Source of the DNA: Linum tenue | Taxonomy: Eukaryota; Streptophyta; Magnoliopsida; Malpighiales; Linaceae | DNA length: 64,000 bases | Direction: 5' to 3' | Assembly: GCA_946122785.1 (NCBI GenBank) | Contig: CAMGYJ010000011.1 | Coordinates: 24,739,007-24,803,006 of the forward strand | Translations under genes and position numbers: made by a program | Notes under the pieces: generated by a model | What the model saw: the letters and a program-made list of their open reading frames with translations, nothing else | The model's database searches: none | Told to the model about the DNA's origin: nothing | Part shown: one piece after another, positions 41,115-64,000 of the stretch | How positions within the stretch are numbered: the first letter of the stretch is position 1 | Layout: each line of letters starts with the position of its first letter

Positions 41115-44100
41115 ATGGCGACACACACTTCTCGGATTGTGGATTTAGAGACGCAAATGGCGGAGGTTCGTGTCCAGATCAATACTAATCACCAGGATCT
41201 GAAAGATGCTATCGCGGCGTTGGCGGCTTCGACGAAGGACACCATAGATGCGCTGGCGGTTTCTATCGCTCGACGGGAGAAGTCGCCGGTGCGTTCACCG
41301 CCGCGAGCTGAAGCTGGTCCGTTTGCAGAGCCTCACTTCTTTCGGCAAAATCGCCGGTCGACGCTTCTGGATCATTATCCTCGCCTTGAATTCACTCACT
41401 TTTCCGGCACCGATCCTCATGCTTGGGTAAGTCGGTGCGTCAAACTGTTTCACCTGTACTCCATTCCCGAAGATCAGAAAGTCGACCTCGTCTCCTACTA
41501 TCTGGAGGGCCGAGCTTACACCTGGTTCGAGGGATGGTCCTATGGCCGTTTCCCGTTGATTTGGGGCCATTTCGTCGACGAGCTCTTCCGCCGATTTGAC
41601 AAGCAGGAGCAAACAAATGTGGTGGCGTCTTTCAATCATCTTCGTCAGACTGGCTCGGTTTCTCGTTATCAAGAAGAGTTTGAGGAATTGCGTTCTCGGA
41701 TGCTTCGCCTCAATCCTGCTCTCAACGAGCATTACTTCATTCTCAGTTTCTTGGGCGGACTGGATGAGGAGATTCAACCACGAGTGCAGGTTCTCAATCC
41801 TCCTACTCTGGCTTGTGCTTTCTACCAAGCTCGTCTGGAGGAAGCTGCCATTGAAGCACGCAAGCGGAAGAGTCGTGCTTCTTCTTCCAATCGTTGGGGG
41901 GGGGGGATCTTCGTCGTCGTCTGTCCAATCTAAGGCTGCTCCTATCACTCCATCGACTCACATCACGGAACGTCCTCCGGTGGCGAGGGGTCAAGGTCTC
42001 TGTTACCGGTGCGGCAACAAGTACTTTCATGGCCACATCTGTGCGAAGAAGAAACAACTGCAAGTGATGCAAGGGGATGATTCGGTGCTGCCTAGTGAAT
42101 CTGACGATCCTGAGGAGGAGTTTCAAGATGCTGAATTAGAGGTCTCCTTGCAGACCATGGGGTCGGGTTTTGCTGGGAACTCGTTGCTCATTCCTGCTTC
42201 TGCTGGCACCAAAGAGGTAACTGTTCTTATTGACACAGGAAGCTCTCACACGTTTCTGAATTCCCTTAGAGCAGAAGACCTGAACTGTGTGACTGAGAAC
42301 ATTGCCCCTATGCGCGTCAAGGTAGCTAGTGGTCATACTCTCCTTAGTAGTGCTGTTTGTAGGGGATTTCGTTGGCAAATGCAAGGGCAGGACTTTGGGT
42401 TTGATGTTCGAACCCTGGATTTACCTTCTCACGATCTGGTTTTGGGATGGGATTGGTTGGAGACGATTAGTCCATTCCAAATGGACCTCAAGAAGAGGCA
42501 GCTGTCTTTTGAGTGGAAAGGGGGGATGATGTGTTTGCAGGGTCTTTCGAAAGTTGGGCAGTGTAAATTGTTGAGTGGCCGCCAGTTTCAACAGCTATTG
42601 AAAGATCCCTCATCTCAATTAGTTGGTGCTGTTTTTGCTATTGAAGCCTCTTCTCCAGATATTCTCCCCACTCCTCCATTCTTGCAGCCTCTCTTAGACT
42701 CATACTCTGATGTTTTTGCAACCCCATCCACTTTACCACCCTCACGATCGTTTGATCATACCATTCCTCTGTTGCCTTCCACAAAACCCATTAACATTCG
42801 CCCTTACCGCTTTCCCCACCACCAGAAGGCTGTTGCCGAGAAATTAGTGGCTGAGATGTTGCAATCAGAGTTCGTTCAGCCCAGTCATAGCCCATATGCC
42901 TCGCCGGTGCTGTTGATTGGCAAGAAAGATGGCAGTTGGCGTTTTTGTGTGGACTACAGGGAGTTAAACGCCGCCACCATTAAGGATAAGTTTCCAATTC
43001 CCCACATTGATGACTTATTGGATGAGCTGAATGGGTCGGTTATATTTTCGAAGTTGGACTTAAGAGCAGGGTATCATCAGATAAGAATGCACCCTGATGA
43101 TCAGTTTAAGACTGCATTTAGCACTCACCAGGGTCATTATGAGTTTCGTGTTATGCCATTTGGCCTCACGAATGCTCCGGCTACTTTTCAAGCGCTGATG
43201 AATCACGTTTTTGGAAGATATTTGAGGAAGTTCATCCTCGTCTTCTTCGACGATATTCTGGTTTACAGCAGATCTGAGGAAGAGCATGAACAACACTTGG
43301 CTACTGCTTTACAGCTATTGAGAGACCATCAGCTGTATGCTAAAGCGTCTAAATGCGCTTTTGGACAGCCCAGGGTGGAGTATCTTGGTCATATAATCAG
43401 TCGGGAAGGGGTAGCAACAGATCCAAAGAAGGTTTCAGCAATGACTAATTGGCCTCGTCCCTTGAATATTAAACAGCTGCGTGGTTTCCTGGGTTTAACA
43501 GGCTACGACAGGAAGTTTATTCGCGACTATGGTACTTTGAGCAGACCGTTGACTGCTCTTTTGAAGAAGAATGGGTTCACATGGGGGCCGGATGCTGAGT
43601 CTGCTTTTGAGGTGCTTAAAAGGGTTATGAGTGAAGCACCAGTGCTGGCTTTACCCGATTTCACCCTCCCTTTCACGTTGGAAACTGATGCAAGTGGAAC
43701 AGGTGTGGGAGCTGTATTAACTCAAGGGGGTCGCCCTTTGGCATTTTTTAGCAAGGCCCTGGGGGTTCGTAATCAAGGCTTAAGCACTTACGCGAAGGAA
43801 TATCTGGCTGTTCTCTTAGCAGTTGATCATTGGAGGCACTACTTGGAGGGTCGTTCTTTTACTATAGTCACGGATCATGAGAGCCTTAAGTTTTTGTTGG
43901 GGCAAAAAGTTCACACTGCTATTCAAAAGAAGGGACTTGTCAAACTTATGGGGCTGGATTTTCAAATTAAGTATCGTAAAGGGAAGTTTAATGGGGCTGC
44001 CGACGCCTTGTCAAGGGTTTTTGAGGAAGTGGAGCAGGTGGAAGAAGGGGATTGCAACGCCATCACTACTGTTTTACCCGAATGGCTGGCTGAGATCGAG

Positions 44101-45507
44101 GAAACTTATGTTGATGATCCTGACACAGCTTCCTGGATTACTGCTGCTGCTGTTACTTCCCAAGGACCTTCCCTCTGGTCGTTTTCATCGGGTGTGCTGC
44201 GTTATAAAGGGGCTGTAGTAGTGGGCAGGACAGGGGGAATGCGTTCCAAGCTATTACATCTGTTTCATTCTTCACCGGTTGGGGGACACTCGGGAGCACA
44301 GGTCACATATCAGCGTCTTCGAGCACATTTTTACTGGAGGGGAATGAAATCAGAGGTGGCAACTTTGGTTTCTCGCTGTGATGTGTGCCAACGCTGCAAA
44401 TCAGAGACTGTCGCTTCACCCGGGCTGCTCCAACCCCTTCCTGTGCCAACACAAGCTTGGCGAGATATAAGCATGGATTTTATAGAGGGCTAGCCTCCTT
44501 CAAAGGGTAAGCAGGTTCTTCTAGTCGTTGTGGATCGTTTCACAAAGATTGCTCATTTTTTCAGTCTCAAGCATCCATACTCAGCTGCTGACGTGGCTCA
44601 GATTTTCTTCGATGGTGTCTTTAAGTACCATGGGATGCCTTCGACCATCGTTTGCGACCGAGATGCCACCTTTACCAGCCATTTCTGGACTGAATTCTTC
44701 AGATTGCAGTGCACTGACATCCACTACTCGACTGCATACCACCCGCAAACAGATGGGCAAACTGAGCGGGTGAACAGGTGCCTCGAGGACTATCTCCGTT
44801 GCATAACTTTTCACAGACCGCATGATTGGGTGGATTGGTTGTCGTTGGCTGAGTGGAGTTACAATACTCACTACCACCTTAGCCTGCAGATGACTCCCTT
44901 CGAAGCCCTCTATGGGTTTCCCCCTTCCCATTTCGGCTTGACACCATCTTCGGGTACATCTGTCGGGGCTGTGGAAGACAGAGTCAGGAATCAGCATCAC
45001 CTCGTCAAGTTTCTGACCGAAAGTATCACGCTTGCTCAGAATCGGCAGAAGCAGTATGCTGATCGCCGGAGGTCTGAAAGGGTTCTGCAGGTCAGGGATT
45101 GGGTGTATTTACGCCTGCAGCCATATCGACAAGGTTCGGTTGTGGGCAGACATGGAAACAAGCTGGGTGCTAAATACTTCGGGCCATATCTGATTGTTGC
45201 GCGAATTGGAGTTGTTGCTTACAAGCTGGCTTTGCCATACCATTCTAAGATACACCCTGTTTTCCATGTATCGCAATTGAAGCGGTGTAGATCCACGGTG
45301 CCACCAGCTGCTGAGCATCTTCCCGAGCAGGACGATTTGGGTTCTTTGAAGTTGGAGCCATACAGGATTTTAGCGCGCCGATTCGTGAATCAGAGCAATA
45401 GAGCAGTCACTCAAGTGCTGGTTCAATGGGTACACCAGGCTCCAGAAGATGCAACATGGGAGGAGTTGGCTTCTTTCAAACTTCGGTTTCCCGCTTTTCC
45501 AGCTTGA
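41115..45507 (+). pseudogene. chromovirus gag-pol polyprotein with one frameshift and one stop
   Basis: The start is ATG 41115. Gag is followed by a zinc knuckle (CYRCGNKYFHGHIC, near 42000), protease (VLIDTGSSHTFL), reverse transcriptase (catalytic FFDDILVYS near 43250), RNase H (LETDASGTGVGAVL), integrase with HHCC finger (HLFHSSPVGGH then CDVCQRC) and catalytic core (DRFTKIAHF, CDRDATFTSHFW), and a chromodomain-like tail (ATWEELASF). Two lesions break it. A run of 11 G at 41896-41906 puts gag and pol in different frames (10 G would join them), and a TAG stop lies at 44491-44493 inside the integrase core. Confidence 0.93.
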
Positions 45508-46442: not shown

Positions 46443-49400
46443 ATGGGTTCCGGATCTGATGATTTCAAAGGAACTATGTCTGGCGGTGTCAAGGCCGAAG
46501 ATCACCTTCCGCCTGCGTATCAGCTGTCCAATTCCGATGGTCCGGGAAATATGCTTGTTGGTGATGTTCTCACAGCCACCAACTATGGCGAATGGGTCCT
46601 CGATATGAAGGATGCCCTCATCGCCAAAAATAAATATGGGTTCGTCGATGGTTCTCTTCCGAAACCGGAGTCGGCGGAGGAACGAGGTGTTTGGCTTCGT
46701 TGTGACGCCATGGTCAAAGGATGGCTAAAGACCTCCATGGATAAGGAGATTCGTAGCAGCATTCGCTTTGCTGAACATGCTGCTGGCATCTGGTCGGATC
46801 TCCGAGAACGATTTGGTACTGGAAGCTCTTCACGAGCTTATGAATTGCGGCGCTATGGGAGGAGAATTCCTCCATCACCCCGTTGCCTATTTGCACATGC
46901 GCCGGATGCGTCTGTGGAATCTCCAAGAGGATCCGTGAAGATCAGGAACGGGCAAGGCTCTTCGAATTCTTAATGGGCCTTGATGATTCTTTTGGAGCCA
47001 TTCGGACTCAAATATTGGCCATGCGGCCAACTCCTACACTTGCTGAGGCTTTTCACATGGTCCTCAATGAGGAACAACAAAAACAAATTTCACAGCAACG
47101 CCAAGTAGCGCCAGAAGCTGCTGTGTTCGTGGCGGCCGGTACACCTGACAAGGGCAATAGCGGACCGGGGGAGCAACGTGATCGTGATCGTCCTCGGTGC
47201 ACACATTGCCAGCGTTTGGGACACGTTCGCGAAACGTGTTATGAGCTGATTGGCTACCCCCCGCGGGACAAACAGAGTGACAAGCAGGGAAATCGCCAGC
47301 AGCGACGTCGCAATTCCAAATCTGGCGACAATCGCGAACCGCGCGCGTCACAGGTGGAATCCGAGCAGAGCCCTGTTGCTAGTTTTACCATGACTCAGCT
47401 GGAACAACTAAAACAGTTCTTTGGCGCATCAGGCAAGACAGTTGATGATCCGGCAGCTCACATGGCAGGTATACTCTCATACGAATCTGAATGGTTATTA
47501 GATTCTGGTTGCAATGAACATATTACTATGGATGAATCAATGTTGTCTCGAAAAGAAGTTCCTGTTAATGGGCAGCCTGTTCGCATACCCATTGGAGACA
47601 GTATTCCGGTAAAGCACATTGGCTCCGTCGAGCTGCTGCCTGGTTTCACTCTTGGTCGAGTACTTCATGTACCCGAATTCCGGTGTAATCTTATTTCTGT
47701 GAGCCGACTGACAAAGGATAATCATGTGGCATTGATTTTTCTTGATATATTTTGCGTAATCCAGGACTTACGCTCGAAGAAATTGATTGGGAAGGGTGAA
47801 CTTCGTGATGGGCTATATTATTTGCGCTTGTTTGGACAGGGTCATTCTCAAGCTTGTGCCGTGCAACGCAAAGGAGTAGTGTCTGACGCAGTTTGGCATG
47901 CCCGTCTAGGGCACCCTTCGCCGGAGAAAATCATACATATTAGTCGTTTATTGTCTGTTCCTTTAAATTCATATTCTGGTCCTTGTCATTCATGTTTGCG
48001 AGCTAAACAGACTCGAGAACCTTTTCAGTCAAGTATGATTAAGACTTCGTCACGTTTTGACCTTATTCATGTTGATATTTGGGGTGGTTATAAGGTAGCT
48101 TCATTAAGTGGGGCTCATTATTTTCTAACCATTGTTGATGATTTTTCACGAGGTGTTTGGGTGTATCTTATGAGATATAAATCTGAGGTCGAGCGATATC
48201 TACTACATTTCTGCAAGATGGTGAGAAATCAGTTTGGATGCTCAGTCAAACGGATCCAGACAGACAATGGTTATGAGTTTCAAACTACGGGTCTTAAATC
48301 ATACTACGAGGATCAAGGTATTTTGCTTCAGACGTCATGTACTGATACACCGCAGCAAAATGGCGTCGTCGAGAGGAAGCATCGCCACATCCTTGACACG
48401 GCTCGAGCTTTGCGCTTTCAGGCTAGTCTCCCCATTCGATTTTGGGGTGAATGTATTCTCACTGCCGTTTATCTCATAAATAGGCTTCCTACCAAAGCCA
48501 CTGGGAAGACGCCGTTCGAGATTCTGTTCGGCAAATCAGCTACCTATCATCATCTTCGGGTATTTGGATGCTTGGTGTACTTTAAAGATACTCATTCACA
48601 CGTTGACAAGTTCGCTGAAAGAGGACGCACAGGATTATTTTTGAGTTATGCGGCAAGTCAAAAGGGTATCGGATTTACGATTTGGTCACCCGTCGTCTCA
48701 TCACTTCTCGCGATGTGCAATTTCACGAGACCATTTTTCCTTGTCAAGATGGAACCCAAAAGGAGATTCATTGGATTCCTAGACCAGAGGCTCCCTTGAA
48801 TGATGACTCCCCGACGGAATCTCCGATTGCCTCGTCCCCAGCAGATCAGTCTGGGCCTGTTCCTGATGGACCGGCTACCATTTCTCCAGCTGGGTCGTCC
48901 TCGCCTAATGGGTCGTCCTCATCCGGCCCGGCCGCTCCCTCTCAGACTAGTCCCCAGCATTCTGCTGGGCCGTCGTCACCTGAGCCGGAGTCCTCCCCTT
49001 CGCGCGTCTGGCGTGGTCCCTCGTCACCTGGGCCGACTGAGACCAGTCCCCAGCATTCTGCTGGGCCGTCTTCTTTTGACTCCGGGCCATCCAAGACAGG
49101 TCCCCAGCAGGCCACTTTTGGGCCGTCTCCTTCAGGTCCTGGGCCACGTCACTCCAGCACAGCTCCAGCTACTCCCGCTCCAGCTTTGCGGCGCGGGGAT
49201 CGGCATCGCAGTCGTCCCAAGTACTTGGAGCAATATGACACGGATCTCCCCTCCATACAGGGAAGTACCAATTCAGTCTTATATCCTTTGGCTAATTATG
49301 TGAATTACTCTAAGTTTACCCCTGGTTTTCGTGCTTTTCTTGCTGCACAAACTAGGTATGATGAGCCTCGGTACTTTTACCAATCAGTCCGAGAGCAAGT

Positions 49401-50928
49401 TTGGCGGGACGCGATGACTCGCGAAATCAAGGCCCTTGAAGCTAATGGAACTTGGAGCCTCGTATTCTTGCCGCCAGGAAAACGCACCATTTCTCCCAAA
49501 TGGGTGTATAAGATTAAGTTCTACCCAGATGGGACTATCGAGCGTTATAAAGCGCGGTTAGTGGCGAAGGGTTATACTCAGATTGAGGGGCGTGACTTTC
49601 ACGATACTTTCGCTCCCGTGGCCAAGCTGGTCACCATTCGTTGTCTCATCGCTGTTGCAGTCAGCAAGGGATGGCATCTTCACCAACTTGACGTCAATAA
49701 TGCGTTCCTCCATGGTGATCTGGAAGAAGAGATCTATATGGAGATTCCCCCTGGTTTTCGACAACCTGGTGATACACGGGTTTGTCGCCTCCACAAGTCG
49801 CTGTATGGGCTTCGACAAGCCTCTCGTCAGTGGTATCAGAAATTTACCACTGCTCTCTGTGAGTTCGGTTTTCATTCTTCTCCTGCTGATGCGGCTCTGT
49901 TTATCTACAAGCGAGGGAGTACCTTTGTCACTGCCTTGATATATGTTGATGATGTTCTTCTTGCTGGGAACGACCTGCCATTCATAAATAAGGTTAAGTC
50001 ATTCCTTGATGAGCGGTTCAGCATCAAGGACCTTGGTATTTTGCGCTATTTTCTGGGCATTGAGATTGCTCGTACAGCTGATGGTGTGTCTTTGAGCCAA
50101 CGCAAGTATACCTTGGACATTCTTGAAGATGCTGGTCTAGAAGGGGCTCGCCCCAGCAGTTTTCCGATCGAGCAGAATCATCAGTTGACACGACCGTGTG
50201 ATGATGCGTTGGCTGATCCGTCTTCTTATCGTCGGCTTGTAGGCCGCTTACTGTATTTAACTGTCACTCGTCCCGACATCACCTATGCAGTAAATATCCT
50301 TAGTCAGTTCGTTCATGCTCCTAGTCAGAAGCATCTGGATGCTGCTTTCCGCGTTCTTCGCTACTTAAAGTCATCGCCTTGCCAAGGCTTGTTCTTCCCG
50401 AGAAACAATTCCCTTGAACTTACTGCTTATTGTGATGCAGACTGGGGGGGTTGTCAGAGAACTCGGCGTTCTACTACTGGGTATTTTATCAGTCTGGGTG
50501 GCGCTCCTGTTTCTTGGCGTACTAAGAAACAGAATGTTGTGGCTCGTTCTTCTGCAGAAGCTGAGTACCGCGCCATGGCAAGTACTGTAAGTGAGGTCCT
50601 TTGTCTTCGTTGGTTGCTTCAAGAGCTTGGTGTTCCTCAGTCCGCACCAACTCGACTGTTTTGTGATAATCAAGCTGCACTTCACATCGCTAACAATCCA
50701 GTCTTCCATGAACGGATTAAGCATGTAGAAATGGATTGTTACTTTGTTCGTGAGCGTGTTCAATCAGGTCACATTCTTCCAGTCAAGGTGCATACCGATT
50801 TCCAGCTAGCTGATATCTTCACCAAAGGGCTCGGTGCCGATCGTTTCCACTTTCTTTTGTCTAGTTTGCGGGGGGAGTATTGGATCGAGACTCTTCCCAT
50901 GAGAAGCCCACGTCGGCACCTCCTGTAG
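46443..50928 (+). pseudogene. copia gag-pol polyprotein in three frames
   Basis: Gag starts at ATG 46443. Near 46855 the frame changes and about 35 codons of the usual gag seem deleted. The second frame (to 48799) carries the zinc knuckle CTHCQRLGHVRETC, protease WLLDSGCNEHIT, the pre-integrase finger (WHARLGHPSPEKI) and integrase (DDFSRGVWVYLM, TDNGYEF). A second shift lies near 48670. The third frame (48682-50928) carries a serine/proline-rich linker, reverse transcriptase (VDDVLLAGN near 49950) and RNase H (AYCDADWGG). The domain order PR-IN-RT-RH defines Ty1/copia. Young LTRs and broken frames suggest that other copies supplied the proteins. Confidence 0.92.
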
Positions 50929-51348: not shown

Positions 51349-52820
51349 TTTGGGCCCGCCCGTTGGCCGGATGGATCACATCAATAATATAAACAGTAAT
51401 TATCATCATTCGAACAATGTGTTTGGTATGATGAAAGAACACATATTATTCAATTACTAAAAATAACCTACAATCCTACATAATAAGTTTTACAACATCT
51501 TGACATTCATGGACAAAAGCCTTATCAAAAGTAAACAACAAAACTCATGCAAGTAACCGATTTCTAAAAAAATTAATATTCAAAACGCACTTCAATTTAT
51601 TCTTTGTTATAAATTACTTCAAATTTCCTTTTGGATTCTTTTTATTGCTCTGCCATCAAAAGCATCTTCTCCACGGAGCAGAATCATCATTAATAAAATT
51701 TTATATTCATCATCAATAGTCTCATCCTTCTTTTGCATTTCATTGAAAACGAAATTTTAATGGCCGAATGTTTGGAACTATCAAACATATTTTCACGATA
51801 GTAGAATTTCACATCATCCAAATCATAAATATTAACAACCATTTGCTCTTTCCTCCCATCATTAAAATTTTTATATATACCAATCAATTATCTCAAACCT
51901 CTCTAACACCCAACACCATCATATATGTTGTCTTCCTAATATTATTGTACAATTCCCCCAAAAGTACTCCTTTGAGTTTTTTTTTCAAATTTAAAGATAA
52001 GTTGCATATTCAAGATATTACCAACAATTTCTAAGTTTGATAACTTTATATTTTATGAACCAAAATTTTATACCACTCGTTACCACTGTGTAGAAACTTT
52101 TGTTTTTAACTCAAGCTTTGAAATATTTTACTTTGAAGGAATGAGTTCATCTTGCTCCATGTGATCTACACATTTTGGAGGGGGGAGGGGGATCTAATGA
52201 CCAAATATGCCACCTTATTAGTAAAAAATGTCACATTATACTATGGTAGATTGTTATTCAAGGTGATAAATATTTCTACTATCATGTATACAATCATTCT
52301 ACTCATATAATATGTTCATACCAATGTGATACGCTTTTATACTATCATGGTATAATCTTATATACTACCAAGCATTATCATCATGGTATAGATTGACAAT
52401 ATATGTCTCAAAAAATTTCGATAAAAATATATAAAAGTAGATGTCATTTTGATGAATATAATTAATATGCTTCTTCGTGCAAAATTTTGAATTACGAATT
52501 AAATTGAAAGACATATAACCTGTTAAAATTAATTGGAAGAAAAGTTATATGTCTCCTCATGTTTTGGAAAATGGAGAATATACTTGACATTTCCTTGCCA
52601 AGGACCGCATGGCACACTATTTGAAGTTTTGGATTTTTTTTAAAGTGTGAATAGAAAGCAGGGCCAAGGAATAAATTAAGGCCAAGCCCATGGGTATTGA
52701 AGCATGGAAACGGAATTGCAAGCGGAAATTGCTTGATTGGAATTGACCGGGGAGCCCTTCCTAAAGTTGCGTAGGAAGCTCCAATTTTACAATTCTATAG
52801 GTTTTGCTTGGGAACGTCGG
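51344..52820 (-). mobile_element. probable second Helitron end and AT-rich spacer
   Basis: The sequence starting at 51344 resembles the 3' end of the Helitron at 40014 (CTAG, then a GC-rich hairpin with GTTGGCCGG). Its 5' end could not be found. The rest to 52820 is AT-rich with no gene; ATCATGGTATA-like words occur near 52340-52395. Confidence 0.35.
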
Positions 52821-52829
52821 CTTAGGATA

Positions 52830-52900
52830 GGGTGAGTAACCCTTTGTTACTCACCCGTGAGTAACCACCTAGGAACCGTTGATCTGGGGCGGACGGATCG
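52830..52900. repeat. left terminal region of the MULE
   Basis: GTGAGTAAC, its inverse GTTACTCAC, and GTGAGTAAC again are followed by AACCGTTGATC (52874-52884). The right end mirrors this with three GTTACTG words. Confidence 0.55.
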
Positions 52901-52988
52901 TGTGGCTGTCACTGAAGCGGGATGGTCAGGGGCATTTTTATCCGTTATTTGAATTAATGAGTTTCCCCTTTTGTCCGTTGCGAATCTT

Positions 52989-53247
52989 TCTGTGCGCGAG
53001 TTGGATTCGGATTTTGGAGAGAGAAACTACGAGCAGGGGAGCAGCAGCTGAGAATCAAGGACGGCGATTCTCCATGATTGATCTACGGCGATAGAAACTG
53101 CGAGCAGCAGCTTCGAATCGAGCTTTCTGATTCTCCATAATTGATCGACGTGTGCGCGAGTTGGATTCGGTTTTTGTAGGGAGAAACTGCGAGCAGCCGC
53201 TGAGAAACAGGGGACGGCGAATCTTTTCTGATTCTCCATAATTGATC
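52989..53247. repeat. internal repeats in the transposase 5' leader
   Basis: TGTGCGCGAGTTGGATTCGG starts two copies about 160 bp apart (52991 and 53151), each followed by GAGAAACT(A/G)CGAGCAG and GATTCTCCAT(A/G)ATTGATC. A partial third copy lies between. The repeats are upstream of the start codon and probably transcribed as leader. Confidence 0.6.
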
Positions 53248-53431
53248 GACGACGAGGTTAGATATTAGTTTTTTTTATTCTTCCTGTTTAGCTAATCGAG
53301 TTTTCTGTTGATCTCTGGTTTCGTTGGAGGTTTTTCATTGCTGCTAGTCGAGCTTGTTTATGTTTAGCTAATCGAGCTTGTTCATGTGTTATGTTCTTTG
53401 TGTTTTGGTGTTTTTGCAGTATTCTGGTGAG

Positions 53432-56400
53432 ATGAGTTACGTAAATTGTGGCGATGTTGTTCCAATTGATAGATCTGGTTCTTCAACCAGCGTTGTAGGA
53501 TCTGGTTCTTCATCTAGTGCTGTTGGAACTGCTTCTTCATCTATCGATCTTGGATTTGATCATTCAGCTAACTCTGGTGAATCAGGAGGTAAGATATACA
53601 AATTTGTTTGTTTATTGAAGTTTGTATAGTGTCGTAATTTGATTTTACCATGCCTTATCATGTGGTAATTGATTTTACAATACATTACCATGTGGTAAAA
53701 TGTGGTAATTAGGAAGTTAAATGTGAGGGTTCTGTGTGATAATTGATTTTACCATGCCATACCATATGGTATAGTGTGGTAATTTGATTTTACCATGCCA
53801 TACCATGTTGTATAGTGTGGTAGTTTGATTTTACCATGCCATACCATATGGTATAGTGTGGTAATTTGATTTTACCATGCCTTATCATGTGGTAATTGAT
53901 TTTACAGTACATTACCATGTGGTAAAATGTGGTAATTAGGAAGTTAAATGCGAGGGTTCTGTGTGATAATTGATTTTACCATGCCATACCATATGGTATA
54001 ATGTGGTAATTTGATTTTACCTTGCCATACCATGTGGTATAGTGTGGTAGTTTGATTTTACCATGCCATACCATATGGTATAGTGTGGTAATTTGATTTT
54101 ACCATGCCATACCATGGTGGTAACTCTTGTATCATGGCTGTAATTATTGGTATACATTGAGATTTCATACTGTTGTGGTGTGGAATCCATTTTATCATAT
54201 ATCATACCATGGTGGTATTATATTTGTACATATTTAATATGTTGTTTCATAATGTTTGTAGGTTTCAATGGTATAGATCCTACTGTTCGTGATTCTTGGA
54301 AGGACTTAGAGTTCAATACACCAGATGATGCATATAATTTTTATGTTGATTATGGGAATCATGAAGGTTTTGGTGTGAGGATTTATAACCAATCAGCGTG
54401 TCCGAAGCTCAATGGTGGTTCTTCAGCTGTATATTATATCAAGTATTGTTGCAATAAGGAAGGTTGGAAAAGAGGTAGCGAGAATAACCCTGATAATGCA
54501 GGTGTTGTTGATACGACGATTCGTGTTCGTAATGTTCCAGAACTCAGGGGTGGATGTAATGGTGCTTATATACGACTGAGGTGGTTTAAAGAGTTTAAAT
54601 GCTACAAGATCTATCATTGGTATAATGTGCACAACCATGACATTATTCCTGAGTCTCTGCGTCACTATGTGAGATCCAGCAGACGAATGGCTCAAGTGTA
54701 TAAGATGTTGGCAGAGGTGAATGATGCTGCTGGTATTGGTGTGACTTCTTCGTATTATGCAATTAGTAGGGCTGGTGGTGGTCGGAAGTTTGTTGGGTTC
54801 ACAAAGAATGATTTGAAGAACCATCTGCGAACGGTTAGGACGTTATCAATGGAGTATGGTGATGCGACTGCATTGCTTGAATACTTTAGACGTCAAGCAC
54901 AGCTGGATCCTGGGTTCTTTCATGAGGTGGAGGTTGATGTTGAAGAGAACATTGCTAGTATTTTTTGGGCAGATGGGAAGATGAGGATGGATTATCATTA
55001 TTTTGGTGATTCAATTAGTTTTGATACTACTTACCGGACTAACAAAGAGTATCGGCCACTATGTATGTTTTCTAGTTTGTTGTTTATTATTGTCTTTGTT
55101 AGTTTGTATGATTATTATTATTATCATTCTGTATCATTTTTTTTTTGTTCTTACAAGTCTGTACCATATGGTATGGGTTGGTATGGATTGTTTTTTTGTT
55201 CTTAAAAGTATTTTACCATATGGTATGTGTTGGTAACAAGGTTATTTGAGGTGGTTTTTGGGTTGTTAGAAGTTTGTACTATATGGTATGGGCTGCTATG
55301 CATTGTGTTTTTGTTCTTAAAAGTCTTTTACCATATGGTATGGGTTGGTAACAAGGTTATTTGTGGTGGTTTTTGCGTTGTTAGAAGTGTGTACTATATG
55401 GTAGTCTGGTGTGGATTGTTTTTTTTGTTCTTAGAAGTCTTTACCACATGGTATGAGTCTTTACCATATGGTATGGGTTGGTATTATTGTTATTCGTACC
55501 TTTTACCACATGGTATGTGTTGGTAGAATTGTTTTTACTCACATTTTGTTATGTTTTTGTAGCTTTGTTTGTTGTTTTCAACAATCATCACCAACTGACT
55601 GTCTTTGCGGCTGCTCTTCTATATGATGAAACAATGGCAACATTTGAATGGCTTTTCGATCAGTTTTTGAAATGCATGGGAGGTGTGAGACCGTTATCAA
55701 TGTTTACTGACCAGGCTGCTGCAATTGCTGCTGGTATAAGGTCTGTTTTCCCAGATTGTTTTCATGGGTTGTGTACATGGCATATTGCTCAGAATGCAGT
55801 TGTTAATCTGGGAAGTTTGTGTGACTCTGACTTCCTTCGTGAGCTTAGTTATTTGATGTATAATGCTGATGATGAGGATGATTTTGAGTATAATTGGAAG
55901 AAGATGATTGAGAAGTGTTTTCCTGGGAAGGGACCTTTGGGACACAGTTGGTTACAGGGCATTTACAAAGTCAGGACGAAGTGGTCTTCAGCCTGGGTGA
56001 ATTGTCATTTTAGTGCGGGAATGAAGAGTACCCAGCTAAGTGAGTGCTGCAATAGTAATATTCGACATTACTTGCAGTCAGAGTTTAGCGTTAGTAGGTT
56101 CTTTGTGCACTTTGAGAGGATGCTTGATAATAAGAGGGATGCTGAAGAACAAGAAGAGTACTATGCCTTATCTAGGTTGGCTGATTCTCGGTTTTCTACT
56201 AGCCCTATTGTGAAGCAAGTTGCTAATGTGTATACGCCGAAGATATTCAAGTTTTTCCTGGATCAGTACAAGGAATCCCTTGCGTATAATATTTTTTCCA
56301 ATACGGAGATAGAACCAGAAGGACATGTAGGACTGTTTGATGTCTTCATATTGGAGGATGACCTTACAAGGTTGGATAGTAGGGTGTTGAAGGTTGATTT

Positions 56401-57046
56401 TGAAAACGGTGAAATCAAGTGTTCCTGCCGTAAGTGGGAATCAAGTGGTATGATCTGTAAGCATCAAATTAAGGGATATGATATGTTGTGGTCTACAACA
56501 TGCAATATGAAGTTCCAGCACATTCCTAGCAGTTTGATTTTGAAGCGGTGGACAAGGGCAGCGAAAACTGGAGGGAACTTTTCTTTTGAAGTTCCGTCTA
56601 CTAATAGTCCATCGAAATGCCGTTCTCGTCTTTTCAATCTGTCAGCTGTTTCTGCATCAATGATCAGCAGGGTTGCATTGGATGATGATTTGTATAAATC
56701 AGCCATTGTCTTCATGACTGATTTGATCAAAAGTGTGAAGCCCTATCGATTACTGAACCTGCTGGAACAAGCACGTCTTCTAACGGTGACAGTAAGTTTT
56801 TAATTGTTTAGAGTTTGTTTTTGTTTTTGTTATCTGTCATTGATTGTAGTTTGTTTTTGTTATCTTGGTATAGATGATGTACCGCTCCAAAAAGTGAAGG
56901 GGTTTAAGCCTAAAAAAGATTCATTCAAGCCTTCGAAACGACCAATTCCAGTTGCGGAGGCTGCAAGTAAGAAGAAGAGAAAAACTAGCAGGCTTGAGGA
57001 GGAGAATTTGAAGGCTGTTGAAGAAAGTTTAAGGCTGAAGCTGTAA
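53432..57046 (+). CDS. MULE transposase, FAR1/FHY3-related (about 787 aa)
   Basis: Proposed exons: 53432-53588, 54262-55062, 55563-56795, 56874-57046; this sums to an in-frame 788 codons. The last donor is weak: the stronger site 4 nt earlier would break the frame. A Ser/Gly-rich N-terminus is followed by a FAR1-type DNA-binding domain (residues about 60-150; DDAYNFYVDYGNHEGFGVRI). The MULE transposase core has catalytic residues D307 (SFDTTYRTNKEY), D369 (MFTDQAAAIAAG) and E480 (STQLSECCNSNIR). A SWIM zinc finger (C606, C608, C618, H620) and a lysine-rich tail follow. It would bind the element's ends and catalyse cut-and-paste transposition in the nucleus. All three catalytic residues are present and no stop interrupts the spliced frame. 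Confidence 0.85.
53640..54120. repeat. 41-bp palindrome array in transposase intron 1
   Basis: Palindrome sites, perfect or with one to two changes, start at 53760, 53801, 53842, 53883, then 53987, 54028, 54069 and 54110, that is every 41 bp within each run. The unit contains TTTTACCATGCCA followed by TACCATATGGTA and TAGTGTGGTAATT. Confidence 0.9.
55160..55520. repeat. palindrome cluster in transposase intron 2
   Basis: Perfect TACCATATGGTA copies lie near 55172, 55214, 55329 and 55462, with variants (TACCACATGGTA) near 55443 and 55504. The 500-bp intron 55063-55562 contains them all; open frames here are intronic. Confidence 0.85.
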
Positions 57047-57149
57047 TAGTTTTCTTAGAGGATTATTTGAATGAATGGTTGATGCTGGTTGAGTTGTTGA
57101 AGCTATTTTGTTCTTTTGGATTGGTTTTTGGTTTTGTTGGATTAATTTT

Positions 57150-57830
57150 ACAATGTTATACCATGTGGTATAATGTGGTAATTTGATTTTATCATGTCAA
57201 ACCAGGTGGTAAAATGTGCTATTTTGGAAGTTGAATGTGAAGGTTCTGTTTTATAATTGATTTTACCATGCCATACCATATGGTATAGTGTGGTAATTTG
57301 ATTTTACCATGTGGTAATGTGTGGTAATTGATTTTACCATGTGATAAAATATTATATTTTGGAAGTGGCATGTGTGGTAATTGATTTTACAGTAAATTAC
57401 CATGTGGTAAAATGTGGTAATTTGGAAGTTAAATGTGAGGGTTCTGTGTGATAATTGATTTTACCATGCCATACCATATGGTATAGTGTGGTAATTTGAT
57501 TTTACCATGCCATAGCATATGGTATAGTGTTGTAATTTATTTTTACCATGCCATACCATGTGGTAAAATATGGTATTTTGGAAGTGGTATGTGTGGTAAT
57601 TGATTTTACAGTGCATTACCATGTGGTAAAATGTGGTAATTTGATTTTACCATGCTATACCATATGGTATAGTGTGGTAATTGATTTTACCATGCTATAC
57701 CATATGGTATAGTGTGGTAATTTGATTTTTACCATGCCATAGCATGTGGTAAAATGTGGTAATTTGGAAGTTCTGTGTGGTTAACTGATTTTACATTGCA
57801 TACCATGTGGTAAAATGTGGTAATTTGGGA
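57150..57830. repeat. palindrome array between the two MULE genes
   Basis: Sites start at 57275, 57472, 57513, 57554, 57617, 57658, 57698 and 57740, again mostly 40-42 bp apart. This covers most of the space between the convergent stop codons. Confidence 0.88.
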
Positions 57831-58509
57831 ATTAAGAACACATGTTAAGTATTTGCTAACATAATAAAAAACAGAACATTTCATTTAGTCATAATACAAA
57901 CCATAATAAGTTGTTTCATACCATCCTACTAATTAAAATGAAGTGGCTACTGAACATTGTGAGTTTGTTCTCAAAAGCTTACTTATACCCTCCTACTACT
58001 TAACACAGACGATAATAGAATTTTCATCTCCTTTCTTTCAAATCTTTCTTTTTGTTCTTCATGTTGCAGTACTTTGTTGCTTCTTTCATGATCCTTTCCC
58101 GTTCAAGATTTTCTTCATCAAGAATGATGTCCAACATCAGGCACTCCCTTTCTTCATTTATGAGATCAATCCTCTTCCAGTCTTTGGTCAGGGCACTGTT
58201 GTACTTACCTTCCCAGTGTCTCATCCACCTGATGATGTACATCCCACATGAAATTTGATCTGGTTGTGTAACCTTCTCGAGGTTGAACCAGGTAAACCTC
58301 TCCCACCTTACTGTCTTGTCTGCAAACTGTGTCTTCATGTAGTTGATTGCGTACTGGACAACCCTCACTGCCATTGGTTTGTAGTATTTTTCAAAATCTT
58401 TGTGACGGAGACTGTCGAGCACTTCAAATCTCTCTGCTTTGATGTTGACACAAATCATGATGTAGTGCTTGTTATCATAGTAAGGGAAGAACCACTGCAA
58501 AATAATTTT

Positions 58510-58700
58510 ACCACAGTATACCATATGGTAAGCAGTTGCCATATAAGTGATGAACAGTAAGTTAAGAACCATTGCAAACTAATTTTACCACTATATACCA
58601 TATGGTAACCACTGGAAACTAATTTTACCACTATATACCATATGGTAACTACTGCAAACTAATTTTACCACTATTTACCATATGGTAACCAATGCAAAAA
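58510..58700. repeat. palindrome array in the last protease-gene intron
   Basis: Perfect palindromes start at 58519, 58596, 58636 and 58676, at 40-bp steps after the first. The intron (58495-58718) is almost entirely this repeat. Confidence 0.88.
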
Positions 58701-59159
58701 TTGTGGTGAGATACTTACAAGGTTACATTCTGTGAAGCTGAGGTTTTTTGCCCATTCTTTGTTGGTGATGTCCAAGTCCACTTTGTCGTAGTAATCGTCT
58801 GGAGTTAGTACAGGATTGCCACTATCAATGTCCAGTTGGCAGTCACCCTGAAAGTTGTGGTTGTTATTATGTGTTTTATATATGTGTTGTCTAAGAACTA
58901 TTGACAGAATATGGGTGGGTTTACTTACTGCCAAAGATGTACCGAAGAACCACCTTTTGAATTTTCCTTTTTTAACTTCATTCCTGTTCATTACATCTCC
59001 ATACCAGTCGATGACATCAGATGTGATTTCACAGCCAATGTCAATCATCTGTACTGACTCCCTTTTCAGCAAGAATGTTCCATCCTTCCTTTTAAACATT
59101 ATCTCATCACTGTATAAAAGCACATCACAACCGGACGGATGGTTTACTTTAATTTATGA

Positions 59160-59450
59160 CATCAAATAATATGTTACCACAACAAAACCATAGCTTACCA
59201 CATCTTACCATATGGTAATAAGTAAAACACAACATCTTACCACATCTTACCATATGGTAATAAGTAAAATAGAACAGGAGTTATGGTTTAATCCATTCTT
59301 TAACAACAAACCTTAGCTTACCACATCATACCATATGGTATTAAACTAAAGCAAAACAGGACTTGTGCATTACTACATTTTGTAACATTAAACCATAGAT
59401 TTATCTAATTTTACCATATCTTACCATATTTTACCATATGGTAACAAACT
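59160..59450. repeat. palindrome cluster in protease-gene intron 3
   Basis: Perfect copies lie at 59206, 59248, about 59329 and about 59432, inside the intron 59110-59503. Confidence 0.85.
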
Positions 59451-60171
59451 AGATCACTACAGTAAAATCATATAACAGTAGAAGTTTTAAGATGATGACT
59501 TACCTCTTGACAAATTTCTTGTTTTTGCATCTTATGTACTCCAGGATGTTGCTGAACATATCATCAGGTGTTGTTTGTGTTGGTGTTGACCATTGAACTG
59601 GTGATTTTTGTGATTGTGGAGCAACTGGTTCAACAGTTGGAGAATTCAGGTCCTCTAGGTAAGCATCTATGCATTCACGGACTTCCTTGAGCTTCTCTTG
59701 GCTGTTTGTGTACAGATTTGACCATATAGCATATGACTCCGTCTGTGACTGGGTGCTTTGTGGCTGTTCTGGTGGAGGTGTTGCTCTTGCCTTCTTTTCA
59801 TTTCCGTGCACATTCTTCACCACGATTCTTCTTTTGCGAGGCTCTCCTGGTTGATCGGTTGCCGTGTTGGTAGTCAACTTCGTTGGCGTTGTTGGTGTTT
59901 GACGGTTGAGAGGGCTGAGATCAAAGGATGGAATGTCGTCTTCCCTTGTCACTTTAGGCTTCTCAGCAGCTTCGGTTGTCAGTTTTGGAGCCTCTTCTCG
60001 AACAACATCATCTGACACCGTTTTCTCGCTGTCAGTTTCTGCAGTCTTTTGTGCAGCTTGCCCTGTATTCCCTTCTTCTGTTGTTTCCTTATCAACTTCC
60101 ATTGGATCTGCTGTTTTGGTAGCTCCTTTTTCTTCGGTTTCTTCTGCAGATGTCTGTTCTGGAACTGCTTT

Positions 60172-60174
60172 CTA
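60172..60174 (-). other. premature TAG in the protease gene
   Basis: In the long third exon the frame runs on both sides of this codon with the same acidic, lysine-rich composition, so a single C-to-T change of a CAG codon is the simplest origin. Confidence 0.75.
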
Positions 60175-60769
60175 GGTGTCCTCTTGTTGTGGTGTTCCCT
60201 GATTCAGACCTTCTTGAACAGATTGTTCTGGTGGTTCTGTTGCAACTTCCCCCAGTGGATCTCCTTCTTTTGGGATGCTTTCCCTATTCACAGCTCCTGG
60301 AGCAGAATCATCTTGCTCCTTTTCTTTTGGCTTCGATGTAGATGCAGCAAGATCGACTGTAGATGGTTGTGAATCATCTTCTTTCTGTGTTTGCTCCTCG
60401 TTCTCCTCTTCGTTCTGGTCTATGTTTGTCTGTTTGAATATTTCATTGAGTGTTTTATTCAAACTGGCATGCATTTCTTCTTCATTCTCTTCTTCATCAT
60501 CTTCACACTGAGATTTTTCTCCTTCTGTGGGCTGAACATATTCATCACAGCTTTCTTTCGCAAGATTCTCCTTGTGTCTGATCAGATTGTCAATTTGGCT
60601 TTTGTACTGGTCTTTGATTGCTTTCATCATTGCCTTCATTGATGCTTCAAGCAGTTTGATTGCATTCTCAGCCTGCATAATGGGAGTATGGTTAGTTACC
60701 ATGGTGGTAATACATGGTATTGGCAATTATTATCACTATTCTGCATTTTTTATAACATGAAACTATATC

Positions 60770-61215
60770 TTACCACACCTTACCATATGGTAACAAAGTA
60801 AAACAGAACAAGAATTATGGTTTCTTCCATTTTTATAACATGAAACCATTGCTTACCACACATTACCATATGGTAACGTAGTAAAACACAACAGGACTTA
60901 TGTTTTCCTCCATTTTTATAACATGAAACCATAGCTTACCACACCTTACCATATGGTAACAAACTAAAACACAACAGGACTTATGGTTTTTTGCTTTTTT
61001 ACAACATGAAACCATAGCTTACCACACATTACCATATGGTAACAAAGTAAAACAGAACAAGAATTATGGTTTCTTCCATTTTTATAACATGAAACCATTG
61101 CTTACCACACATTACCATATGGTAACGAAGTAAACCACAACAGGACTTATGTTTTCCTCCATTTTTATAACATGAAACCATAGTACCACACCTTACCATA
61201 TGGTAACAAACTAAA
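60770..61215. repeat. 83-bp palindrome array in protease-gene intron 2
   Basis: Six perfect palindromes start at 60781, 60864, 60947, 61030, 61113 and 61194: steps of 83, 83, 83, 83 and 81. The last step is short because two bases are missing in the unit. Each unit has AACATGAAACCAT, then TTACCACAC, then TTACCATATGGTAAC. Confidence 0.92.
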
Positions 61216-62369
61216 ACACAGAAGGACTTACGGTTAGCATGAATTGGACAACTGTAATATAGATAATTTGTACTTACTTGGTTGACTGTTCTGATATTAT
61301 TCAAATCAAAGTTCAGTGATGATGACTGGTCTGGACTTTTGTTTCTTTGTTTTTTCGGTGATTCATAGACTGGCTCATTCTCCTCTTCCTCATCAGCTGC
61401 ATCATCAGCCTCATCGTCACTAATGTTGGCAACCTTTTCGATCTCGTTCAACTCTTTTCCATTGTAGTAGCTCTTAATGTTCTCAAAGTTGCTATCAACA
61501 TTGTTATCATCATAGTAGCTTACTGTTGGTGTTCGAAGCTGGGTTGAGAATGCCATTTCGTCCAGTTTGTACATGAAGCATACCTTTTTATGCATATAGT
61601 TGTATTAGTTTTTTCAAAGAGTATCATTTATATATAAAATATATGAGTAACAAGGTTGAAATGGCCAAGGGAATGGAGACTTACTGTAAGGAAGTGAAGA
61701 TCTGCATTGACGTAGAGCTTTGATGATTTCAATCCTTCATTCATGTGGTTGAAGAAGTATTTGCACCAGTTGTAGCTGGTGAAATGTTTCAGTTCATCAG
61801 TCTTCAAGTACTCAAGCATGTTGAGTTCAGCCATAGGGGCTGAAGTTGGGCACAGCAAGCCTCCGGTGACCAGCAGAAAGAACAATTGTAACCATCTCTT
61901 ACTGTTTGTAACTGTAGAAATATCTTTTTCTACCTGACTTAGCTTTACCCTTGGAGTGGATTTTCCATCTACTTCCAGTAGGGTTTCTATTGCATAATCT
62001 GCTGCGTCGTCCCAAGAAATCGTGGAAGGTACAACTTCCCTATTCCCCATTGGCAGACCATATACCCTATGAAAGTCGATTGGTGATATCTTCATGCGTG
62101 TCCCGTCAGGTAGCTTGAAAGATTGTTTCATTGGATTGTATTTGTTCATTACGAACAATGCAAAATGGTTGTTTATCTTTGTCTGCTTGATTGATATTAA
62201 GCCTTCTAGGCCTAATATCTCAAGTTTCTCTTTCTGATCATCTTTTATAGTCCTTGCAATTGCAGATATTCTTGTTGGGCTGCACCTTGTGCGAAAATTT
62301 TTTCTTTGCTTTACCATAGTGTACCTGAATGTAGAAATTAGGAATAGTCTGTTAGCGTGCTTTTTACCA

Positions 62370-63160
62370 TAATATACCATATGGTACCATAATGGTTTCC
62401 TACCATACCAAATCAAACCATATATTTATCACATTTTACCATATGGTAATTACATCAAACCATGTCTTATAACATATTACCATATGGTAACGAAGTAAAA
62501 CACAACAGGATGTATGTTTTCCTCCATTTTTATAGCATGAAACCATAGCTTACCACACATTACCATATGGTAACAAACTAAAACACAGCAGGACTTATGG
62601 TTTTTTGCTATTTTACAAGATGAAACCATAGCTTACCACACTTTACCATATGGTAATAAACTAAAACACAGCAGGACTTATGGTTTTTTTGCTATTTTAC
62701 AACATGAACCATAGCTTACCACACTTTACCATATGGTAACAAACTAAAACACAGCAGGACTTATGGTTTTTTGCTTATTTACAACATGAAACCATAATTT
62801 ACCATACATTACCATATGGTAACAAACTAAAACACAGTAGGACTTATGGTTTTTTGCTTATTTACAACATGAAACCATAATTTACCATACATTACCATAT
62901 GGTAACTAACTAAAACACAGCAGGACTTATGGTTTTTTGCTTATTTACAACATGCAATCATAATTTACCACACATTACCATATGGTAACAAACTAAAACA
63001 CAGCAGGACTTATGGTTTTTTGCTATTTTACAACATGCAATCATAACTTACCACACATTACCATATGGTAACGAAGCAAAACACAGCAGGACTTATGGTT
63101 TTTTGCTATTTTACAATATGCAATCATAATTTACCACACATTACCATATGGTAATGAAGC
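62370..63160. repeat. 83-bp palindrome array upstream of the protease gene
   Basis: Perfect palindromes start at 62375, 62437, 62478, 62561, 62644, 62727, 62810, 62893, 62976, 63059 and 63142. From 62478 onward every step is exactly 83 bp, and the step before it is 41. The array lies between the start codon at 62317 and the right end of the element, where the promoter of the protease gene should be. Confidence 0.93.
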
Positions 63161-63179
63161 AAAACACAACAGATTCTAC

Positions 63180-63735
63180 ATCAGTTCAGCAACGCATGGT
63201 AACAATTCGGTAATTTAGCGAGTTTACTACAATTTTCACATGAAGAGTGACTGCGATACTGTTCTATTGTTCTGTGGATGGATTTCGAAGAAAGAAGTGA
63301 GGTTTTACCTTGATATTTTGTGTGAAAACGATTTTTGAGCCTCGTTGAAGTTGGAAACTCTTCGTTTTTCGACGAAGAAGCGAGAACAGTGTATCGTTGA
63401 ATGATTCTTCGAAAACCTTTGCGAAAATCGTTCGATTTGAAGTTTTTTTCTGGAAGTTTTTGCTGCGATTTTGGTGAGAGAATTGAGGATCGGGAGGAAG
63501 AATGGAGAGTTAGAGAGCAGAGGGAAGTGGAACTGTCGCTTGGAAGGTGAGAGGAAGAAGGAGAGAAGGCGGGACGGTTGTCGCTGTCACGTCTGCAATT
63601 CAAATTGTCAGAGACGTGATTACATTTTTGCCCCGCGTGTATTTAATTGGCATGATCTGACGGCTGGGAAGATGGCGCGATGGACGGTCGGATCAACGGT
63701 TACTGACCGTTACTGATAGGTCGGTTACTGATAGG
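63180..63735. repeat. right terminal region of the MULE
   Basis: This is GC-richer sequence after the array. It ends with the inverted core GATCAACGGTT (63691-63701) followed by three GTTACTG words (63699-63731). ORFs here are probably untranslated leader of the minus-strand gene or chance. Confidence 0.5.
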
Positions 63736-64000
63736 ATCCGGACCCGTGTTCGTCTATATAGTATTGGAAAGAAAGATAGATGGTAATTAGTAGATAAGGT
63801 AAAGAGACGCTGAGTGCAGTGATAGGGTGGCTAGGGTTTTGCAGTAGATATGTATATATGAACTGGTAAATTACTGAATGATACTTACAGGATACAGTTC
63901 AATTACATAAATTGTCAATTTTTACTATCTTAATATATATATGGTGGCGTCTTCGGCGCACTCACTTTTTTGGGTGCATTCAGTGCACTCGCTTCATAAC
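63736..64000. other. flanking sequence, nothing recognised
   Basis: This is AT-rich non-coding sequence. GTGCATTCAGTGCACTC close to the window end is a short imperfect palindrome of unknown meaning. Confidence 0.3.

Follow-up and report, generated by a model that had tools for sequence, protein, structure and literature searches.

A 64-kb window of Linum tenue DNA (the whole stretch analysed, at its full length) holds a Mutator-type element (MULE) that is probably best explained as a VANC-type anti-silencing system within a FAR1-type (Jittery-like) Mutator element. The second of its two genes would encode a DUF1985-like/Ulp1-like protein, the putative binder of TACCA half-sites one helical turn apart, acting probably as a dimer or larger multimer. 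The recurring palindrome TACCATATGGTA is an inverted pair of such half-sites, in most cases followed by a third at a distance of 10 bp. Protein bound along the introns, the gap between the genes and the upstream region would keep the element free of DNA methylation, and short non-autonomous elements would be protected in trans. The role of the second-gene product as binder, its multimerisation and the resulting loss of silencing are all inferred.

Profile matches in the window identified a MULE with a FAR1-type transposase gene and an antisense Ulp1-like gene, and the domain matches agree with this same assignment in the preliminary description. The transposase gene lies on the + strand and has GT-AG introns and four inferred exons, namely exon 1 (53432..53588), exon 2 (54262..55062), which encodes the FAR1 DNA-binding domain (E 7.9e-9), exon 3 (55563..56791), with the MULE (E 2.1e-16) and SWIM (E 1.4e-4) domains, and exon 4 (56874..57046). 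This FAR1, MULE and SWIM domain set is that of a Jittery-type MULE. Among known proteins, the transposase comes closest to one from Linum trigynum (P0001; 92% across 75% of the query), relative to which exon 3 has a frame change near its 3' end, as read from the alignment. The protein is not of the VANDAL type, as it carries a FAR1 N-terminus, a feature tabulated for the Jittery group and some other groups, among which VANDAL (MULE group 45) is missing (PMC6446971).

The Ulp1-like gene occupies the - strand, convergent with the transposase gene across a gap at 57047..58023, and has six inferred exons, ordered as a DUF1985-like exon, an acidic linker and an Ulp1-type peptidase (E 1.4e-8, exons 4–6). 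Exon 1 (61685..62317) is the DUF1985-like part and is followed by exon 2 (61278..61583), exon 3 with the linker (59504..60672), exon 4 (58929..59146), exon 5 (58719..58847) and exon 6 (58024..58494; Peptidase_C48, E 1e-7). An Ulp1-like gene running in reverse to the transposase is a trait of Kaonashi MULEs that is present here. The encoded protein has a His, an Asp 17 residues on, and then a Gln and a Cys six apart, a pattern that fits the Ulp1 catalytic residues; all four are found in the window copy and in L029, one of four further family copies fetched from the genome (L027–L030), while L028 is without the His. The DUF1985 match in exon 1 of the window is sub-threshold (18.4 bits, E 0.0022; Pfam cut-off 35.1). 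This profile region was matched in three of four exons, always below threshold (E 0.0022 in the window, 0.00018 in L028 and 0.059 in L030), and the profile scan gave no match in exon 1 of L029. A structure predicted from the single sequence of the DUF1985-like exon was uninformative (mean pLDDT 31.9), solved structures included no relative of this exon and none meaningful for the Ulp1-like part, and a protein database search limited by shared words and length returned no scored relative of the Ulp1-like protein. Both genes are damaged in the window copy: the linker has one in-frame stop (60172-60174), exon 4 of the Ulp1-like gene does not continue the phase of exon 3, and the transposase has the frame change.

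The preliminary description had counted about 37 exact palindromes between 53.7 and 63.2 kb, and we indeed find 37 copies of TACCATATGGTA at 53760-63142. No other 12-mer is as frequent in the window, the runners-up among palindromic 12-mers having two copies each, and the expectation of far less than one copy per 64 kb holds as well (mean 0.01 over 100 shuffles, largest 1). The one-base variants mentioned earlier amount to 14 one-mismatch copies, all within 52830-63735, as are 9 of the 10 two-mismatch copies. The remark that the palindrome occurs nowhere else is right for the window, with zero copies outside the element, but not for the genome (see below).

The palindromes are distributed over seven arrays. 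On the + strand these are transposase intron 1 (53589..54261; four palindromes, 41-bp and 227-bp units), transposase intron 2 (55063..55562; four, 115-bp unit) and the gap between the genes (four, in transposase polarity). On the - strand they are introns 5 (58495..58718; four, 40-bp unit), 3 (59147..59503; four, 42-bp unit) and 2 (60673..61277; six) of the Ulp1-like gene and the region upstream of its ATG (62318..63300; 11). About five types of array unit can be told apart; the 41-bp unit is common to transposase intron 1 and the gap, and an 83-bp unit to intron 2 of the Ulp1-like gene and its upstream region. Every intron longer than 200 bp has an array, and the introns of 78-101 bp have none. 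The exons (5,290 bp) contain none of the 37 palindromes, 2 TACCA and 7 TGGTA, and the arrays (4,319 bp) contain 97 TACCA and 88 TGGTA, i.e. 185 half-sites. Tandem arrays scoring at least 150 are many within the element and number one in positions 1-52500 of the window, a part to which the element has no matches. The observed/expected ratio of CG is 0.15 in the arrays (53589-63300), 0.44 in the exons and 1.31 in the ends.

Inverted TACCA-N2-TGGTA pairs number 48, with TA (37), TG (9) or CA (2) at the centre, and these three centre types indicate that the half-site TACCA, rather than the 12-mer, is the basic unit. Half-sites on the same strand recur in 10-bp steps, with 60 pairs at this distance and two at all other distances between 6 and 15 bp. 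Up to 30 bp, the same-strand pairs further comprise 11 at 30, 4 at 20 and 3 at 21 bp, as well as one each at 5, 9, 14, 16, 23, 24 and 26 bp. As tandem duplication inflates pair counts, the number of distinct spacers within the 10-bp pairs (21) is the fairer count. Inverted TACCA to TGGTA distances are 48 at 7, 59 at 17, 13 at 27, 3 at 8 and 2 at 18 bp, and divergent pairs are looser (15 at 24, 9 at 23 and 8 at 14 bp). The 52.8 kb preceding the element, which served as a control, have 1.8 half-sites per kb and a single pair at 10 bp. The palindromes thus behave as recognition sites of a multimeric protein would, as had been proposed for a dimer, and relatives of the element keep the lattice.

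Compared to the borders first given (52830-63735), a better position for the left one is 52819 (GGCTTAGGATAGGGTG), and the right one lies, with less certainty, near 63745. The left end (52819..53431) has the GGCTTAGGATAGGGTG start common to short relatives, an 11-bp inverted repeat and two GTGAGTAACC, and the right end (63301..63745) has two GTTACTGATAGG. The left border was derived only through comparison with the short relatives; with the left end of one of them (L017) it aligns over 65 bp at a score of 58 (300 shuffles reached up to 23), and the right end scored 28 (shuffles up to 24). When the element was examined by itself, its ends showed no terminal inverted repeat that exceeded shuffles (end-to-end inverted alignment score 40; 200 shuffles, mean 26, largest 41), and there is no clear target-site duplication, the flanks outside both ends agreeing at 6 of 9 bases. 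About 1.9 kb to the left of the element lie Copia-type LTR retrotransposon frames on the + strand (46883-50928; integrase, RVT_2), and at 41596-45507, also on the + strand, two open pieces make up a Gypsy-type polyprotein that has reverse transcriptase, RNase H and integrase zinc domains and a chromodomain match just under the cut-off.

Ten short elements, bounded by alignments, measure 0.84-1.03 kb and have 7-9 bp direct repeats at their flanks (read by eye), as in MULEs. Given their similar ends, we take them to be non-autonomous relatives of the element. Their half-site density is 15-22 per kb inside vs 1.1-3.8 outside; as short elements with similar ends thus carry the same sites, protection in trans is possible. 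The lattice might instead be bound by the FAR1-type transposase and serve for internal tethering or regulation, both in autonomous elements and in short ones, a reading we consider unlikely. FAR1 is a DNA-binding domain, the short elements, which need transposase sites only, have the lattice too, and MURA transposase can cause hypomethylation, according to the accessible part of one paper (PMC10398659); however, not one half-site lies in the terminal 602 bp on the left (52830-53431) or 435 bp on the right (63301-63735), where AGTAAC-type repeats form the ends' own motif. The introns of both genes, moreover, are filled with sites, which transposition does not need. The transposase, named at the outset as a possible binder, is therefore the weaker candidate.

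Across its own genome (692,308,334 bases), TACCATATGGTA occurs 15,088 times, compared to 36 occurrences of the reversed pattern as a control. Our genome sample consisted of 20 stretches, each 9.9 kb long and drawn from the first part of a single contig, which together hold 48 of the 15,088 palindromes. At E 1e-8, 17 of the 20 did not match the element at the DNA level, and in 18 of the 20 a palindrome was located within a segment common to at least 12 other stretches, so the sampled sites lie mostly in dispersed repeats. Contrary to what had been predicted, the palindrome is therefore not enriched only in copies of this family, as these repeats share DNA similarity with the element at the ends only; neither, in this sample, is it an unrelated satellite. 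Across the 20 stretches, 125 half-site pairs lie 10 bp apart and have 27 spacers, 21 pairs lie 11 bp apart, and no other distance has more than five. A further half-site occupies the 5-bp position at 30 of the 48 sampled palindromes and lies at 6 bp in 11, so that its spacing is looser in these stretches. L020 (4237-9899) and L024 (187-5890) are 97.5% identical over a shared repeat that measures at least 5.7 kb and includes an array of ~51-bp units around TACCATATGGTA. It gave no protein match to those exons of the element that were used, and L020 has no frame above 156 aa; the repeat may be a further element that relies on these sites. Searches for palindrome pairs found none in viral contigs (gap 28-58) and two prokaryote contigs (gap 60-90). 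These two unrelated contigs, L001 (5585-5764) and L002 (1433-2666), hold three and four TACCATATGGTA, respectively, and each has copies starting 84 bp apart, which would be odd if due to chance.

That 15,088 copies exist, in elements of differing internal sequence, and that any dimeric factor would suit the lattice, could also mean that a host factor binds it, as an enhancer or chromatin platform that many elements came to share. We regard this as quite improbable, because the DNA adjoining the ten short elements is not enriched in half-sites, although 48 of the 15,088 sites were sampled.

A TGGTA stands exactly 5 bp downstream of 35 of the 37 palindromes in the window, in gene sense and with the gap array read in transposase sense, and a TACCA stands upstream of 8 of the 37. 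This tracking of gene polarity by the third half-site, together with the folding of array pieces, four of five of which fold better than shuffles (z -7.8, -6.4, -4.2 and -2.7; the fifth -1.0), would suit arrays that act as RNA, with intronic transcripts folding and affecting splicing or small-RNA production. Such folding is, however, a by-product of tandem palindromes, and it has no need for 10-bp same-strand steps with free spacers, which makes an RNA role very improbable.

Half-site columns also stand out within the repeat units. The 83-bp unit was compared across 15 copies, with palindromes 62375 and 62437 omitted because they are not of this unit. Odd letters occupy 2 of 255 positions in half-site columns vs 155 of 990 elsewhere (P 2.5e-14), and in the 12 in-register copies 0 of 204 vs 97 of 792 (P 1.2e-10), both P values ignoring descent among copies. 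The outer half-site alone, which had no role in choosing the copies, shows 0 of 60. Of the 83 placements of the half-site mask round the unit, two are without variation, i.e. one besides the true placement.

Relatives of the DUF1985-like exon 1 number at least 150 in the genome (150 scored among 714 candidate places), with 124 at 78-100% identity, window copy included, and 26 at 60-62%; 18 of the former 124 have an inside stop. The palindrome is present in all five family copies that were compared (window 37, L027 19, L028 15, L029 10, L030 6). The L027 stretch (97%) matches the Ulp1-gene side only and L028 (82%) has both genes; L029 and L030 are copies of a sister subfamily (exon 1 60-62% identical), with a transposase ~79% identical in L029 and none within the L030 stretch. 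In none of the four fetched copies does the 12-mer occur in coding sequence, and half-sites per kb in coding and non-coding parts are 1.4 and 9.1 in L027, 1.4 and 26.9 in L028, 2.2 and 27.7 in L029, and 1.4 and 32.4 in L030. Pairs at 10 bp number 44 with 22 spacers in L029 and 42 with 13 spacers in L030. L030 also has 25 half-site pairs at 5 bp, owing to its ATACC repeats; runs of ATACC/TATGG pentamers are seen at 860-950 in L029 and 8948-9245 in L030.

DNA matches of L029 cover 94-100% of four of the five window exons compared (32% of the linker exon), and of the seven window arrays four are covered to 0-9% and three to 37-52%. We conclude that most of the array DNA has been replaced, with half-site, step and place kept, and the maintenance of the lattice in the sister subfamily, although the array DNA mostly no longer aligns, argues for selection on the lattice. 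Between the subfamilies, exon 1 has a dN/dS of 0.27-0.32 and exon 6 one of 0.14-0.19, rough values with dS near or above 1, which indicate that both domains are kept by purifying selection; the comparison of L029 with L030 gives 1.17 for exon 1, with few changes. That the arrays are neutral minisatellites spread via slippage and conversion, as their tandem repeats and the simple ATACC repeats in part of L030 might suggest, is the least probable reading, since half-sites and step persist where array DNA turned over, coding parts are at background and, within the 83-bp unit, the half-site columns are much less variable than the other columns.

Work by Sasaki from 2022 reportedly found that eudicot VANC systems gained and lost DUF1985, DUF287 and Ulp1, that specificity is set by motif sequence, density and helical periodicity, and that non-autonomous VANDALs are anti-silenced too. 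The view that no such array had been described does not stand, as VANDAL motif arrays, bound by their own VANC, are the same in kind, judging by the accessible text of PMC5735166. According to that text, VANC21 binds YAGTATTAY, which VANDAL21 carries as dense tandem repeats in its introns, intergenic stretches and terminal non-coding sequence, and strips methylation from VANDAL21 in Arabidopsis (Hosaka 2017, PMC5735166). VANC6 works likewise through a different motif (AGTTGTMC), to which the unrelated element AT9TSD1, having this motif, also responds, and VANC motifs change fast between related families (PMC5735166, same portion).

As far as those systems are covered there, our element resembles VANC/VANDAL21 and VANDAL6 in its dense short motif, repeated in tandem chiefly within introns and in intergenic and flanking non-coding sequence, in a second gene with a DUF1985(-like) domain, here sub-threshold, and in a motif that other elements carry as well, as AT9TSD1 does for VANC6. 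The restriction of the motif to non-coding parts holds in the window and the four other copies, and its tandem repeats turn over. It differs in having TACCA in an inverted and 10-bp direct lattice instead of YAGTATTAY or AGTTGTMC, a FAR1-type transposase and a fused Ulp1 domain, in being known from sequence alone, and in a motif constant between subfamilies; a change of motif along with the protein was not found in the one sister subfamily, TACCA being kept at 60-62% identity. Ulp1-carrying VANDALs, too, show motif recognition and anti-silencing according to the available part of a review (PMC13317346). In the excerpts at hand, Ulp1-carrying VANDAL and Kaonashi MULEs have the Ulp1-like gene antisense to the transposase (PMC6117577, PMC13317346, PMC2528002), which is alike here, whereas transposase lineage, motif and host differ. 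Jittery-like MULEs of melon and grapevine likewise combine a Jittery-type transposase with ULP sequence, and the available part of PMC2528002 has no motif arrays. A literature search with TACCATATGGTA retrieved one paper, unrelated, and one for Mutator-like, Ulp1 and DUF1985 genes retrieved one paper on MET1 over-expression, whose accessible portion places them among expression changes; the accessible portion of a flax transposable element survey (PMC3544724) contains neither 'Ulp1' nor such an array.

Several observations weigh against a VANC-type reading: the DUF1985 match is sub-threshold and absent in L029, sites extend beyond the family, the transposase is not of VANDAL type, the genes are damaged, and the gene polarity of the third half-site is unexplained by DNA binding alone. 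A half-site constant over 40% protein divergence speaks, in addition, against plain VANC-like co-evolution. In a stronger form of the VANC-type reading, which we advance tentatively and hold to fall somewhat short of probable, a complete cassette of DUF1985-Ulp1 gene, site lattice and trans-protected short elements would work in the FAR1/Jittery-type MULE lineage, having moved between lineages as a module or arisen twice. Its dyad-symmetric, helically phased half-sites would be read by a multimer, and one half-site would have survived the rebuilding of the arrays, in contrast to VANC21 and VANC6, whose motifs are one-directional and change fast.

Compared to VANDALs, what differs is the FAR1-type transposase, the dyad-symmetric lattice and a half-site unchanged over that divergence. 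If true, family-specific anti-silencing would not depend on a VANDAL transposase, and one protein may serve a large number of autonomous and short elements in this genome of 15,088 sites. A lattice this simple can be placed in a reporter, so that how a VANC-like protein finds long targets via short phased sites becomes testable, and the system, if true, would offer a second, independent tool to remove DNA methylation at chosen plant loci.
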